Shown piece after piece: positions 39,258-44,927 of a DNA stretch of 44,927 nt. Source of the stretch: Candidatus Didemnitutus sp. (GTDB lineage Bacteria > Verrucomicrobiota > Verrucomicrobiia > Opitutales > Opitutaceae). Under the pieces are notes generated by a model. The model was not told the origin of the DNA, searched no databases, and saw nothing but the letters and a program-made list of their open reading frames with translations. Position numbers and translations under genes: made by a program. The stretch spans positions 1 to 44,927 of the forward strand of contig JAMPXH010000022.1 of assembly GCA_023701285.1 (NCBI GenBank). Direction: 5' to 3'. How positions within the stretch are numbered: the first letter of the stretch is position 1; every line of letters begins with the position of its first letter.

Positions 39258-39334
<77 letters not shown>

Positions 39335-39503
39335 ATTGTTCATCGGAACGACGAAGAAGTCCCACGGCCCGGCGCGAGGCAAGTCATTATTTTTGCCCGT
39401 GCCCGGGTGCCCGTTCCGGGAGAGACCTACTTAACTCGCGCGGCGACAAATCCTCCTCCCATTTCGCTCGAAACCACCGGCTGCCAGGATTTCCATTCCG
39501 CCC

Positions 39504-40829
39504 GTGAATACCCTGCGACGCCTCCCCCTCCTGACGTTCGTTTCCTGCCTGTTCGCGGTCAGCGCCTTCGCTGCCGATGAGGTCGTGCAACGTGCCGCCG
39601 ACCACGCCCGCTCCCACCCCGCCGGCGAGGCACCTGCCTCCTTCGTCGCGGCCGATTACCACGGCGACCTGCGCGACCTGCCCATCGGCGTGTTCGATTC
39701 CGGCGTGGGCGGCCTCACTGTGTTCGAGGCGATCAAGACCTTCGACGGCTTCAACAACGCCACCGGCCAGCCCGGCGCCGACGGTGTGCCGGACTTCGTC
39801 CACGAGCGCTTCGTCTATCTCGGCGACCAGGCGAACATGCCCTACGGCAATTACCCGGCCGTGCAGAAAACGGATTTCCTCCGCGAACTCATCCTCAAGG
39901 ACGCCGCGTTCCTCCTCGGCCGCCGTTACTGGCGCGCGCCGGGCGACGCCGCCCCTGCGTTGGACAAGCCGGCGGTGAAAGCGATCGTCATCGCCTGCAA
40001 CACCGCCACGGCCTTCGGGCTCGAGGACATCCGCGCGGCCGCCCAAGCCTGGGGCGTGCCCGTCATCACGGTCGGCGTCGTCGAAGCCGGTGCGCGCGGC
40101 TACGCGGAATCGCGTGGCGAATCGGCCGGCAGCATCGCTGTCTTCGCCACCGTCGCCACCTGCGCCAGCCAAGCCTACCCCACCGCGATCACGCGCGTGC
40201 TCGGCGAAAAATCCCCCGCCGTCTGGCAACGCGGCTCCGTCACGCTCGCCGCCGCCATCGAAGGCGAGCCGTCCGTCAAGCAGACCATCCCCGAGATCGT
40301 CGACTACGAGATCCGCGGCCTGCTCGATGAGCGCCTCAAGGCCGGCTCCGCCAGCGCCGCCCTCGACAGCGTCATGCTCGGCTGCACGCATTACCCGCTC
40401 GTCGAACAGGAGATCGTCGACGCGCTCGCCAAGTGGCGCGATTACACCACCGCGGATGGCACCAAGCCCTACGCCGCGCTCGTCACGGACGGCAAGATCC
40501 ACGTCGTCGATCCCGCGAAGTGGACGGCGCAGGACCTCTGGCGCTCGCTCGCGCAGGCCGGCCTGTTGCGTCCCGCCACGGGCACCGCGCCCGCGGGCGG
40601 CGACCAGTTCTACATCTCGGTGGCCAACCCGCAATGGCCCGGCGTGAAGCTCGACGCCGATGGCGGACTCGACCGCGCCTACAAATACGGCCGCACCGCC
40701 GGCGACCTCAGTCGCGAAGACACCGTCGTCGTCCCGCTCACGCCCGCGCGTCTGCCCACGAGCAGCGCCAAGCTCGTGCGCGAGCGCCTGCCCGCCACTT
40801 GGGCCAGCCTCACGGCGGCAGCTCGCTAG
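39504..40829 (+). CDS. Glutamate-racemase-like protein with signal peptide
   Basis: This 441-residue protein of the Asp/Glu racemase superfamily is close to MurI in motifs. FDSGVGGLTVFEAI begins near 64 and PYGNY lies at 113-117. The first catalytic Cys165 is in ACNTATAFG, followed by VGVVEAGA, and the second catalytic Cys294 with His296 is in MLGCTHYPLVE. Unlike MurI it begins with a convincing signal peptide (MNTLRRLPLLTFVSCLFAVSAFA). It is about 150 residues longer, with loops such as NNATGQPGADGV and an extended C-terminal part. It should act in the periplasm or outside. Racemisation of D/L-Glu or Asp is inferred from the two cysteines; MurI proper is cytosolic. It starts at GTG 39504 and is followed by a terminator, so it is monocistronic. 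Confidence 0.85.
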   Translation: MNTLRRLPLLTFVSCLFAVSAFAADEVVQRAADHARSHPAGEAPASFVAADYHGDLRDLPIGVFDSGVGGLTVFEAIKTFDGFNNATGQPGADGVPDFVHERFVYLGDQANMPYGNYPAVQKTDFLRELILKDAAFLLGRRYWRAPGDAAPALDKPAVKAIVIACNTATAFGLEDIRAAAQAWGVPVITVGVVEAGARGYAESRGESAGSIAVFATVATCASQAYPTAITRVLGEKSPAVWQRGSVTLAAAIEGEPSVKQTIPEIVDYEIRGLLDERLKAGSASAALDSVMLGCTHYPLVEQEIVDALAKWRDYTTADGTKPYAALVTDGKIHVVDPAKWTAQDLWRSLAQAGLLRPATGTAPAGGDQFYISVANPQWPGVKLDADGGLDRAYKYGRTAGDLSREDTVVVPLTPARLPTSSAKLVRERLPATWASLTAAAR

Positions 40830-40856
40830 GTTTTCCGCGTCTTCGTTTCTACCTCA

Positions 40857-40883
40857 GGGCGCGTGACTGCACGCGCTCTTTTT
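40857..40883 (+). terminator. Terminator after racemase-like gene
   Basis: GCGCGTG-ACTG-CACGCGC forms a perfect 7-bp stem, extendable by two pairs, followed by CTCTTTTTCC. It lies 27 bases after the stop codon. Confidence 0.85.
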
Positions 40884-41148
40884 CCTTTTTACTGCCCGCA
40901 GGACGCGCCGTCCGCGCTTCACGCCGACCACGCCGGCACCAAACGGCCTTGCCACGCATCGAGGTCAACCGGCCCTAGGTCCACGCCGAGCAATAACACA
41001 AGAAGTGCGGAGCCGCGCGCGCGCGGCGGCGTTACACTACGGCCCATGCCTCGTGCAGCGCCGGATCAACTCTGATCCGTCGCCCCATCGGCAGCGCGAC
41101 CATCGAACGACGAGCGATGCGCTGCACGTCACCTCGCCGCCGCTGACC
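40884..41148. other. Upstream region of the RCC1/Ig giant gene
   Basis: This is the noncoding remainder of a 319-base gap. I see no gene in it. It contains an alternating GC tract (GCCGCGCGCGCGCGGCGGCG near 41012), a possible -10-like TACACT at about 41034 without a matching -35, and a hairpin at 41062-41079. It presumably carries the promoter and leader of the downstream gene. Confidence 0.4.
41062..41079. promoter_or_regulatory. 7-bp inverted repeat upstream of RCC1/Ig gene
   Basis: CGGATCA-ACTC-TGATCCG is a perfect inverted repeat 69 bases before the ATG at 41149. It could be an operator or a leader hairpin. No regulator can be assigned. Confidence 0.35.
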
Positions 41149-44100
41149 ATGAACCTCCTGGATGCCGGACCGGCCCGACCCGCAACGAAATCGCGTTCCT
41201 CACGCTCGCTCGCCGCTGCACCTGCGCGGCTGCCTGATGTTGCCCGCGCCCCGCGAGGTCGCTGCGCCGGAGCATGCCTCGCGCTTGTTGTCGGGGCGCT
41301 GTTCGCTGTCGCCACCGGCACCGCAACTGAGACACCGCTTGGCTACGTCGTCGGCTGGGGCTACAGCTCCTACGGCGTGACCACACCGCCCGCGGGCCTC
41401 GGCGCCGTGATCGCCGTCGAGACTGGAAGCATGCACACGATCGCACTGCGCGCCGATGGAACCGTCGTGGCGTGGGGCTACAACAGCAACGGCCAGGCCA
41501 CTGTGCCGACCGGGCTCGCCGGCGTGCGCGCCATCGCCGCGGGCAACTGGCATAATTTGGCGGTGCGCTCCGATGGCACGATCGTCGGCTGGGGCACGAA
41601 CAGTTGGGGCGAACTCAACATTCCCGCCGGCCTGAACAACGTGACCGCCGTGGCGGGCGGCGTCGCGCATTCCCTCGCGTTGAAGGCGGACGGCACCGTC
41701 GTCGGTTGGGGCGGTGTCGGAGGCTACGCTTATGGGCAGGGCAATCCGCCGGCCTGGCTCAATAATGTCACCCGGATCGCCGCCGGTGCCGTGCACTCCC
41801 TCGCCATCCGGGCGGACGGCAGCCTCGTCGCGTGGGGCAACAATGCCAATGGACAATGCAACGTGCCCAGCGACCTCGGCCCGGTCGCGGCGGTCTCCGG
41901 TGGAGGCGGTCACACCGTCGCGTTGAAAGCCGACGGCACTGTGGCGGCGTGGGGCGGAAACTACTACGGACAATGCAACGTTCCGCCCAACCTCACCGAC
42001 GTCGTCGCGGTTGCCGCCGGCAACATGCATAGTGCCGCGATCCGCCGCGACGGCACCGTAGTCGTCTGGGGCAACAACAATTATGGCCAGCGCGTCGTGC
42101 CCGGCTCCGCGACGCACCTCTTCGCCATTTCCTCGCGCAACGACTTCCTCATCGCTCTCGTGCGCATCGTCGCACCGGGCGTCACGACGCAGCCGGTGAG
42201 CCTCACGGTCACGCCGACCGCAGCGGCCTCGTTCACCGTGGCCGCGAACGGCACGCCGCCTTTCACCTATCAATGGCTGAAGGACGATCAACCCATCGCC
42301 GGCGCAACCGGCGCGACCCTCGACCTCGGTCCGGTGAGCCTCAGCGACGCCGGCAGCTACCGCGCCGTCGTCAGCAACCCCGCAGGCAGCGTCACGAGCG
42401 ATCCCGCCACCCTCACCGTCAACCGCCTCGCGCAAACGATCACGTTCCCTGCCATCGACCCGCTGCGCATGGACGCTGCGCCGGTGACCTTGCAAGCCAC
42501 GGCCACCAGCGGCCTGCCCGTGAGCTACACGAGCGCGAATCCCTCCATCGCCTCCGTGACCGACGGCGTGCTGACCGTGCACAACGCCGGCTACGTCGTC
42601 ATCACGGCCACGCAGGCCGGCGACGAGATCCATCTCTCCGCGCCGAGCGTGCGGCAGATCCTGCGCGTCACCGGCCTGCCGGGCAATGTCGTTGCCTGGG
42701 GCGCCAACAACGCCGGCCAGACGACCGTCCCCGCCGGCCTCAGCGGCGTCGTCTCCATTTCATCCTGCTTCGCCCACACGCTCGCCCTGAAACAGGACGG
42801 CACCGTCGCCGCCTGGGGACTCAACTCGAACGGCCAAACTTCCGTGCCCGGCGGACTGACCGATGCGGTCGCCATCGCCGCCGGCGGCTATCACAGCCTC
42901 GCCCTGCGCAGCAACGGCAGCATCGTCGGCTGGGGGCACAACGGTTACTATCAACTTTCGCCGCCACCGACGTTGAACAACGTGATCGCGATCGCCGCCG
43001 GTCTCTATCACTCCGTCGCGCTGAAGAGCGACGGCACCGTCGTTGCGTGGGGGCAAAACAGTTCCGGCCAGACCGCCGTGCCCGCAGGCCTCAGCGGAGT
43101 CATCGCCATCGCCGCCGGCCAATACCACAGCTTGGCCTTGAAGAGCGACGGCACCGTCGTCGCCTGGGGCCTCAACAACTACGGGCAGTGCACCGTCCCC
43201 GGCAGCGTCACGCACGCCATCGCGATCGCTGCCGGCGGCTACCACAGCGTGGCGCTCGTCGCGGACGGCGCCACGGCCGTGGGTTGGGGCGCGAGCAACT
43301 ATGGCCAGCTTAGCTCCGGCCCCAGTTGGGCGCGCCTGATCGCCGCCGGCGAAGGCCACACGCTCGCCGTGCAACCAAGCGGCACGGTCGTCGGCTGGGG
43401 TCTGAACAACAGCGGCCAGACCTCGCCACCCGGAGGTGTGATCAACGTCAGCGCGCTCGCCGCCGGATCGATGCACTCCGTCGCGCTGGTCTCGCCGCTC
43501 CTGCCCGTCATCACCACGCAGCCGGCCGACGCCACGACGGACGCCACGGCCAGCGTCACCTTCAGCGTCGCCGCCACCGGCACCGCGCCGCTTTCCTACC
43601 AATGGACGAAGGACGGCGCGGAACTCGCCGGCGCCAACGCCGCCGCGCTCACGATCGCGCGCGTGCACGCGCTGCACGCCGGCGAATACCGCGTCACCAT
43701 CACCAATGCCGCCGGCAGCGTCACGAGCCGTGCCGCGATCCTCACGGTCAACCGCCTGCCGCAGACGATCGTGTTCGCGGAGTTCGCGTCGAAGCGCATC
43801 GATGACGAGCCCTTCACCTTGCAAGCCGCTGCCAGCAGCGGACTGCCGGTGCTCTTCGCCAGCTCCGATCCTGCCATCGCCACGACGGAACTCGCCACGG
43901 TCACGCTCCGCGGCATCGGCGAGACGATCCTCACCGCCAGCCAGCCGGGCGATGAATTCTATCTGCCCGCCGAGCCGGTGAGCCGCACGCTCGTGGTCGC
44001 GCCCGCCCCGCCCGGCATCCTCGCCGCTCCGACCGACCTCGTGGCCGACGCGCTCACCGACGCCGCTTTCAGTGTCACCGCCAACGGCACTCCGCCGCTG

Positions 44101-44927
44101 CGCTACCAATGGTATTTCGAGGAACAGCCCATCGAAGGCGCCACGACCGACACGCTCACATTCACCGCGGTGCGCACGACCGCCATGGGCAACTACCACG
44201 TCGTCGTCACCAACGACGTCGGCCACGTGATCTGCAGCCCCGTCACCCTCTGGGTCCACCGGCTGCAGCAAACCCTCACCTTCGGGGAGCTTCCGGCCGT
44301 CACGACTCACGCGGCGCCGTTCACCCTCGCCGCATCTGCCAGCAGCGGGTTGCCCGTCGCCTTCAGCAGCGACAACCCCGCCGTCGCCACGGTCGACGGC
44401 ACCACGGTCACGATCACCGGCGCCGGCACCGCCACGATCACCGCCAGTCAGTCCGGCGACACAGCCTGGCTGCCCGCGGACAGCGTGTCCCGCACGCTCA
44501 CTGTCACCTCGGGCAACACCGGTCCGCTCGTGCTTGTGGCCGACGATTTCAACCTCGCGGCCGGAGCCTCACCCGATGCCGCGCTGTGGGACTGGGCCGG
44601 CCAGGTCACTCACACCGGCACCGGTGCGCTCAACCTTCTGACGCAGTCCGTGCAACATTCCTGGTTGCGCTCCAAGAGCGGTGTGACCGTCGCCGCGGAT
44701 CAGACGCTCCGGTTGCAGTTCCGCGGCTACGCCTACGCCGAGAACTGGAATCCCGGCGTCTACGGCAACAAGCAGCCGCGAGGGCTGCGCGCCGGCAACG
44801 ACACGGCCAACGTCGCCGAATTCTACTCCGCCTCGCGCACCTCGCTCGGCCTGCGCGTGCGCCGCGCCGGCGTGGAATCGGCGCTCACGGTCGCGTTCCC
44901 CGCCGGCGTCGATTCGATGCAGGATTA
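41149..44927 (+). CDS. Secreted protein with two RCC1 propellers and Ig-like modules (3' end outside window)
   Basis: At least 1259 residues are visible and the gene runs off the window. The N-terminal export signal is unusual: about 38 basic residues precede a hydrophobic core (LALVVGALFAVATGTA, about 44-59). Residues 65-340 hold seven RCC1-type repeats (pattern AxGxxHSLALxxDGTVVxWG). An Ig-like domain follows to about 424, then a bacterial Big-like module (QTITF...SGLPVSYTS...). A second run of seven RCC1 repeats spans about 514-781, then Ig, Big-like, Ig and Big-like modules to about 1123. A carbohydrate-binding/LamG-like region opens VADDFNLAAGASPDAALWDW. ATG 41149 is the only fitting start. 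A surface or adhesion role is inferred from the modules. Confidence 0.88.
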   Translation, partial: MNLLDAGPARPATKSRSSRSLAAAPARLPDVARAPRGRCAGACLALVVGALFAVATGTATETPLGYVVGWGYSSYGVTTPPAGLGAVIAVETGSMHTIALRADGTVVAWGYNSNGQATVPTGLAGVRAIAAGNWHNLAVRSDGTIVGWGTNSWGELNIPAGLNNVTAVAGGVAHSLALKADGTVVGWGGVGGYAYGQGNPPAWLNNVTRIAAGAVHSLAIRADGSLVAWGNNANGQCNVPSDLGPVAAVSGGGGHTVALKADGTVAAWGGNYYGQCNVPPNLTDVVAVAAGNMHSAAIRRDGTVVVWGNNNYGQRVVPGSATHLFAISSRNDFLIALVRIVAPGVTTQPVSLTVTPTAAASFTVAANGTPPFTYQWLKDDQPIAGATGATLDLGPVSLSDAGSYRAVVSNPAGSVTSDPATLTVNRLAQTITFPAIDPLRMDAAPVTLQATATSGLPVSYTSANPSIASVTDGVLTVHNAGYVVITATQAGDEIHLSAPSVRQILRVTGLPGNVVAWGANNAGQTTVPAGLSGVVSISSCFAHTLALKQDGTVAAWGLNSNGQTSVPGGLTDAVAIAAGGYHSLALRSNGSIVGWGHNGYYQLSPPPTLNNVIAIAAGLYHSVALKSDGTVVAWGQNSSGQTAVPAGLSGVIAIAAGQYHSLALKSDGTVVAWGLNNYGQCTVPGSVTHAIAIAAGGYHSVALVADGATAVGWGASNYGQLSSGPSWARLIAAGEGHTLAVQPSGTVVGWGLNNSGQTSPPGGVINVSALAAGSMHSVALVSPLLPVITTQPADATTDATASVTFSVAATGTAPLSYQWTKDGAELAGANAAALTIARVHALHAGEYRVTITNAAGSVTSRAAILTVNRLPQTIVFAEFASKRIDDEPFTLQAAASSGLPVLFASSDPAIATTELATVTLRGIGETILTASQPGDEFYLPAEPVSRTLVVAPAPPGILAAPTDLVADALTDAAFSVTANGTPPLRYQWYFEEQPIEGATTDTLTFTAVRTTAMGNYHVVVTNDVGHVICSPVTLWVHRLQQTLTFGELPAVTTHAAPFTLAASASSGLPVAFSSDNPAVATVDGTTVTITGAGTATITASQSGDTAWLPADSVSRTLTVTSGNTGPLVLVADDFNLAAGASPDAALWDWAGQVTHTGTGALNLLTQSVQHSWLRSKSGVTVAADQTLRLQFRGYAYAENWNPGVYGNKQPRGLRAGNDTANVAEFYSASRTSLGLRVRRAGVESALTVAFPAGVDSMQD

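Follow-up and report, generated by a model that had tools for sequence, protein, structure and literature searches.

A putative exported MurI-type racemase in Candidatus Didemnitutus and its relatives

We report that Candidatus Didemnitutus sp. (Verrucomicrobiota; Opitutaceae) carries a gene for what is probably a Sec-exported, cofactor-independent racemase of the MurI fold with two catalytic cysteines, its most likely role being a catabolic one, on the D-glutamate (D-Glu) of peptidoglycan outside the cytoplasm. An export signal, the full set of catalytic residues, a separate clade, an accessory distribution and, in relatives, fusions to other enzymes can all be read from the sequences, and the MurI fold of the protein is predicted by a structure model. 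The gene lies in a stretch of 44,927 nucleotides of contig JAMPXH010000022.1 that was analyzed as a whole (hereafter, the window; Table 1).

Table 1. Features of the racemase gene, its product and its immediate surroundings (positions in the window)
Feature	Position	Strand	Basis
tRNA-Pro(GGG), flank of the slot holding the racemase gene	39258..39334	-	tRNA comparison
Exported MurI-like racemase gene, 441 aa, GTG start	39504..40829	+	ORF; Pfam, NCBIfam and PDB matches
Putative Sec-type signal peptide, residues 1-24, presumed cleavage site at its end	39504..39575	+	sequence and counterparts
N-terminal helical segment, residues 25-58, before the MurI fold (predicted)	39576..39677	+	model of mature protein
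MurI fold (predicted) with family-specific insertions (e.g., 81-97, 141-156, 305-323, 379-394)	39678..40826	+	
Asp65 of DSGVGG, catalytic Asp position of MurI	39696..39698	+	105/105 rows
Cys165, first catalytic Cys (ACNTA)	39996..39998	+	82/82 and 105/105 rows
Cys220, third Cys, main exported clade only	40161..40163	+	66/66 vs. 0/36 canonical and 0/3 sister rows
Glu253, aligned with the conserved MurI Glu	40260..40262	+	105/105 rows
Cys294-Thr295-His296, second catalytic Cys and His	40383..40391	+	104/104 ungapped rows
Intrinsic terminator, 10-bp stem and T tail	40856..40879	+	terminator scan

Results

Export signal and family

The N-terminus of the protein, MNTLRRLPLLTFVSCLFAVSAFA|ADEV, shows by eye the n/h/c pattern of a Sec signal peptide; a counterpart is present in genome G012 and, in diverged form, in G003, and a 73%-identical orthologue retains the signal, though diverged. 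There is no further in-frame start upstream of the GTG, back to the stop at 39432, and the sole in-frame ATG, GTG or TTG within residues 2-60 is the GTG at residue 28. No strong ribosome-binding site precedes either GTG (for the first, AGGA lies about 15 bases upstream), which counts against the assigned start. The mature form would have 417 aa, about 150 aa more than MurI, with only three cysteines (165, 220 and 294), and the motifs DSGVGG, PYG, ACNTA, TVATCAS, IEG and GCTHYP follow the signal peptide in this order.

Scanned in full against Pfam at E 0.001, the protein matched only PF01177 (40.5 bits vs. a gathering cut-off of 31), with no alanine racemase domain. The best NCBIfam match was TIGR00067, glutamate racemase, at 94.9 bits, i.e., under its equivalog cut-off of 146.65, and each of the 23 distinct PDB sequence matches at E 0.001 is labelled glutamate racemase.

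When genomes were scanned with a 4-row alignment as the query, at least 543 relatives (tblastn, E 0.001) were recovered among at least 589 pattern hits; the best 80 relatives were examined. As labelled in their records, these 80 belong to Verrucomicrobiota and Planctomycetota, apart from two Acidobacteriota, one Latescibacterota, one Glassbacteria and one 'uncultured bacterium', and the nearest named ones among them are the Candidatus Didemnitutus MAGs L052 (95%) and L040 (74%). A home-made signal-peptide rule was passed by 75 of the 79 testable family rows (L021 plus 78 of the best 80, the window not included; L050 and L108 start past the motif), the failing rows being L065, L104, L109 and L119; among the controls, 5/36 canonical MurIs and 124/424 neighbor genes (29%) also pass, the latter rate counting against our explanation. 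In 30 of the 36 canonical rows, the DSG motif is preceded by its closest Met at a distance of 5-15 aa, and translation from that Met would leave no space for a signal. Nine rows were flagged by a loose lipobox pattern, and the putative lipobox appears convincing by eye in L114, L116 and L118. Export of the window protein is supported by its signal peptide together with the family-wide rule, and neither the start-codon scan nor the rule gave any sign of a true start farther downstream, the possibility that an earlier, sequence-only reading of this DNA had raised against itself.

That reading had also proposed to test whether exported members form a clade, and the tree recovered one: the 69 exported rows form one clade, separated from 36 canonical Verrucomicrobiota MurIs by a branch of 2.55 (SH-aLRT 100), in a quick tree for which the program flags long branches, the stem included. 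Because the canonical rows come only from Verrucomicrobiota, the exported clade could nest within the wider MurI diversity. The tree comprised 105 rows, after 18 near-copies or fragments (including L043) as well as L124, L125, L130 and L131 had been dropped. Cys220 is carried by 66 of the 69 exported rows, which group together (98), and L127, L128 and L129, without this third Cys, are their sister group. L127 and L128 have signal peptides by eye; L129 is a 777-aa frame with about 440 residues ahead of the racemase.

Catalytic residues and predicted fold

The protein has both catalytic cysteines of MurI within their flanking motifs, as well as the conserved Asp, Glu and His; the catalytic roles are those known from MurI. 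Throughout the 105-row set, Asp65, Ser66, Cys165 and Glu253 do not vary, and each of the 36 canonical rows has Ile, Val or Leu at position 220. In a separate 82-row alignment (the window, L021 and the best 80 of the at least 543 relatives, near-copies kept), Cys220 is present in 82/82 rows, Cys294 in 80/80 ungapped rows and Asp65 in 79/80, the exception being a Glu in L043, which is outside the 105 rows. By alignment to MurI, Cys165 and Cys294 would be expected to face one pocket.

An AlphaFold2 model of the mature protein, computed from an alignment of 59 rows, had a mean pLDDT of 95.9 and a pTM of 0.94, and its top 48 Foldseek matches are glutamate racemases. VIA-align superposed the model on 2gzm over 259 residues (Z 28.0, rmsd 2.5), i.e., a complete predicted two-domain MurI fold, vs. 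Z of at most 17.7 for aspartate racemases, and structure comparison scored MurI far over aspartate, hydantoin and allantoin racemases. Relative to MurI, the window protein has insertions of 16-19 residues. An appended C-terminal domain was considered and rejected, the MurI fold covering model residues 32-416. The signal peptide ahead of MurI motifs, the two catalytic cysteines and the roughly 150 extra residues described by the sequence-only reading were all recovered, the first with Sec-type shape and counterparts in relatives, the second as Cys165 in IACNTA and Cys294 in GCTHYP, and the third as insertions plus the N-terminal helical segment.

A locus with an accessory gene

The gene has its own terminator and no wall-synthesis neighbors, as had been noted before; terminator-like sites number 6 within 2 kb, vs. 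1.4 in shuffles. Pfam scans of three upstream proteins identified two methyltransferases and an S9 peptidase. Downstream, positions 41005-44925 (+) hold a 1307-aa frame that runs off the contig and contains RCC1-like repeats as well as Ig-like stretches (read by eye); its product is probably exported to the cell surface. The racemase gene of the window has neither a deacylase nor a wall hydrolase gene beside it, and this counts against a role in wall scavenging.

A close homologue is found in 3 of the 13 genomes of the genus. The tRNA-Pro(GGG) is 99-100% identical in 12 of these genomes, and within flanks of 896-1500 bases the racemase follows it in 3 of the 12 loci. Genome G003 has tRNA-Pro, the racemase, tRNA-Arg and tRNA-Ala in succession, with tRNA-Arg as the other flank of the slot. 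The tRNA-Pro to tRNA-Arg spacing is as short as 65 bases in G011 and 96 in G001 and G007 (412 in G008 and 789 in G004), which indicates that the slot is nearly empty in some relatives; in G006, one of six other loci scanned, an inverted tRNA-Arg lies 196 bases from tRNA-Pro. Exact copies of the 3' end of tRNA-Pro(GGG) were observed in G007 (30 bases, C2:15112-15141, about 2.8 kb from the intact tRNA) and in G003 (27 bases, C182:28628-28654), and these look like att-site traces of integration. No close plasmid relative was seen: all 56 plasmid records matched were below 60% identity and none spanned 80% of the query, and the 15 matches listed were ordinary MurI or unannotated.

Fusions and neighbors in relatives

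Among the best 80 of the at least 543 relatives, 11 loci encode fusions; their frames span 850-1062 aa, and the extended N-terminal portion is a D-aminoacylase domain in three and a GH5-like region in eight. The former (L099, L109 and L119) all matched Amidohydro_3, the closest model being NF006560/PRK09061, at scores below its cut-off; this model was once named D-glutamate deacylase. The best PDB match of the L099 domain is a D-aminoacylase (E 3e-75), and the metal and catalytic ligands of D-aminoacylase are aligned. GH5 (PF00150) was matched in five of the six GH5-like fusions scanned (L060, L063, L082, L090 and L106, not L104), and L061 and L105 have the same N-terminal look by eye; the L063 region had no match among PDB sequences at 0.001.

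In L093, a deacylase-like gene (Amidohydro_3) starts at the racemase stop codon, with 9g5m (4.7e-80) and the N-acyl-D-glutamate deacylase 3gip (1.9e-77) as its best PDB matches. OngB-type entries match both this neighbor and the L099 domain more weakly, and D-aminoacylase homologues can be carbohydrate deacetylases, which weighs against reading them as evidence of scavenging. A sodium:dicarboxylate symporter (SDF) begins 93 bases past the racemase in L096, and a GH3 gene stops 52 bases ahead of it in L074. In 7 of the 80 loci (L041-L047), alr, with no signal by eye, ends 1-2 bases before the racemase (identified by Pfam for L041 and by BLAST cluster for L042-L047), and in L113 alr is about 3 kb away; this pairing would also fit a wall-synthesis role and speaks against scavenging. 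Of the 20 neighbor proteins scanned, 6 can be tied, if at times loosely, to the wall or to D-amino acids, i.e., Alr (L041), Gate (L059), an amidohydrolase (L055), GH3 (L074), Amidohydro_3 (L093) and the SDF symporter (L096). For the other 14, no clear connection to either theme is apparent, another point against scavenging: a lactonase, MoeA-like, PS decarboxylase, DUF1552, DUF6807, NAD-binding dehydrogenase, MFS, two hydrolase or BNR proteins, Sel1, a glycosyltransferase, FKBP, a cytidine deaminase and one hitless protein.

A Gate-domain (nucleoside recognition, spore-maturation-like) gene was also observed near the racemase in a 12-locus Prosthecobacter-type cluster (L053, L057-L059, L066, L067, L070, L072, L077, L081, L085 and L108), based on the BLAST cluster and on Pfam for L059.

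Sources of D-Glu in the genome, genus and order

The window genome (G000; 4.02 Mb in 220 contigs, 95.41% complete) contains no second TIGR00067 match, even at E 1, so that the exported gene is the only MurI-like gene found in it. Within the genus, TIGR00067 matched at E 0.001 in 3 of 13 genomes (8 of the 13 being at least 90% complete), always at the exported gene and never over the cut-off, and the remaining 10 have neither the exported gene nor any MurI match, which makes a housekeeping D-Glu role unlikely. At the level of the order, 22 of 177 genomes have a TIGR00067 match (E 0.001), 15 of them over the cut-off, and 155 have none; the matches include a canonical MurI in G014-G016 and G018, which a protein search misses.

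Across 387 genomes of the phylum, the exported profile matched with at least 274 bits in seven (G374, G000, G102, G406, G500, G454 and G358), and G003 and G012 bring the carriers to nine. A canonical MurI (TIGR00067 over the cut-off) is present at a second place in five of the nine (G374, G406, G500, G454 and G358; that of G454 has one in-frame TGA), and hence the exported gene is no replacement for MurI in most carriers. No canonical MurI was found in G000, G003, G012 and G102, i.e., all four carriers of the window's order, in which the exported gene is the sole MurI-like gene, a finding that counts against scavenging. MurI matches with one in-frame TGA each were seen in G014, L019 (on a very long branch) and G454 (C73:10399-11109), and may represent pseudogenes or sequencing errors. 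G495 (94.2 bits, 545-aa frame) and G402 (88.1 bits, 548 aa) have no readable motif and were left out of the counts.

DapF scored 232.3 bits in G000 vs. a cut-off of 114.65; according to one report, the DapF of Chlamydia racemizes Glu and most PVC members are without MurI (PMC5885031). An essential cytosolic D-Glu source is thus an unlikely role for the exported gene, given the 10 of 13 genus genomes and 155 of 177 order genomes without a match, DapF in G000 and the five of nine carriers with MurI. The sequence-only reading had specified that its proposal would fall if this were the only MurI in the genome and essential in the cytosol; the first half of this statement is what we found for G000, and the second is improbable. 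The D-amino acid transaminase TIGR01121, which matched in 45 of 57 relatives (G000 not among them) and over the cut-off in 1 of the 57, was set aside as a D-Glu source, the G003 match resembling a branched-chain aminotransferase by eye. The alternative route via MurD2/MurL, as outlined in PMC8788868, was not seen in G000, where one MurD scored over the cut-off.

Discussion

We favor, on balance, the explanation that the enzyme would be exported through Sec and, its signal peptide removed, would work in the periplasm or on the cell surface, where Cys165 and Cys294, placed on either side of the substrate as in MurI, would remove and return its alpha-proton. D-Glu or a closely related D-amino acid, once freed from peptidoglycan, would be equilibrated with L-Glu, and the latter would be imported and used; in other bacteria, the fused or adjoining D-aminoacylase would free the D-amino acid. 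With partner enzymes expected to yield D-amino acids, the net flux probably runs from D to L, and the fusions, together with some of the neighbors, lean toward wall scavenging rather than signaling. Alongside the export signal and the intact catalytic residues, the role apart from the cytosol that the sequence-only reading had envisaged is supported. It is important to note that free catalytic thiols outside the cytoplasm would face an oxidation hazard, which counts against our explanation. It is tempting to hypothesize, tentatively, a broader exported D-Glu salvage route in the PVC group and others, in which secreted, cofactor-free two-cysteine racemases, some fused to a D-aminoacylase or glycoside hydrolase, would convert D-Glu freed from peptidoglycan to L-Glu ahead of uptake, and the third, clade-specific Cys would tune or protect the thiol active site outside the cytoplasm.

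As the main alternative, the exported racemase might run in reverse and convert L-amino acids beyond the membrane to D-Glu or D-Asp, which would serve wall editing, signaling or, as re-imported D-Glu, peptidoglycan. This is unlikely in our view, even though the exported gene is the only MurI-like one in G000, G003, G012 and G102, alr is paired with the racemase in 7 of 80 loci, and the racemases BsrV, BsrF and RacK (PMC12502697) and the Alr of P. putida (PMC6034422) are described as active in the periplasm. According to PMC12502697, an exported racemase of V. fischeri relieved D-Glu auxotrophy only when its signal was removed, which argues against the window gene as a source of wall D-Glu; further, the 10 of 13 genus genomes without the gene or a MurI match must have another D-Glu source, and the D-aminoacylase fusions point to D-amino acids as the input. 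Less probable still is an exported MurI-fold isomerase with another substrate, such as a peptide-linked or N-acylated amino acid or another D-amino acid: the long stem branch (2.55), the insertions plus the third Cys, and the GH5-like fusions, which suggest glycan substrates, would fit, but the MurI motifs are retained and MurI far outscores the aspartate, hydantoin and allantoin racemases. Finally, an ordinary cytosolic MurI, whose apparent signal is a wrong-start artefact or is bypassed by an internal start, is very improbable and was rejected on the signal rule and on the non-conserved internal starts (among 78 members, 48 have any ATG, GTG or TTG, 10 an ATG and 5 one with a 4-base SD-like stretch), with signals recurring across phyla, some lipobox-like and some ahead of fused enzymes, although a short form might conceivably begin at the GTG of residue 28 and no other MurI-like gene was found in G000.

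Compared with known systems, the window protein shares with MurI/RacE (TIGR00067; 1zuw, 2gzm and 2vvt) the predicted two-domain fold, both catalytic cysteines and the motifs DSG-GG, PYG, CNTA, T..T..S, the conserved Glu and GCTH, but differs in its signal peptide, a mature form that contains insertions and exceeds MurI by about 150 aa, the third Cys, a sub-cut-off TIGR00067 score, a separate clade and an accessory distribution. Membership in the Asp/Glu/hydantoin racemase superfamily is secure, whereas filing the protein as MurI proper is not, since it scores under the equivalog cut-off, carries by sequence a signal at odds with cytosolic location and groups apart from canonical MurI (Verrucomicrobiota rows only). 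The aspartate racemases and the cysteate racemase CuyB belong to the same PF01177 superfamily, with lower structural and profile scores. Like BsrV, BsrF, RacK and the P. putida Alr, which are PLP enzymes of the alanine-racemase type, the window protein appears to be an extracytoplasmic amino acid racemase with an N-terminal secretion signal; unlike them, it is assigned by Pfam to the Asp/Glu racemase family only and, by analogy with MurI, would need no cofactor. The D-aminoacylase and N-acyl-D-glutamate deacylase (1m7j and 3gip), fused or adjoining in some relatives, would catalyze the likely partner reaction but are different enzymes, outside the window. We found no report of an exported MurI-type enzyme in the open-licence literature and, as far as this literature shows, the exported D-Glu salvage route is unreported.

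If our explanation is true, a cofactor-free thiol racemase beyond the membrane would represent a second, independent solution beside the Bsr/Alr type, to which the exported amino acid racemases of the cited papers belong, and it might account for the use of D-Glu from dead cell walls by environmental bacteria. These results also bear on genome annotation, as PVC genomes, largely without MurI according to PMC5885031, could be scored MurI-positive through the exported relative. Further, the finding of the exported gene sharpens the question of where D-Glu comes from in the window's order.
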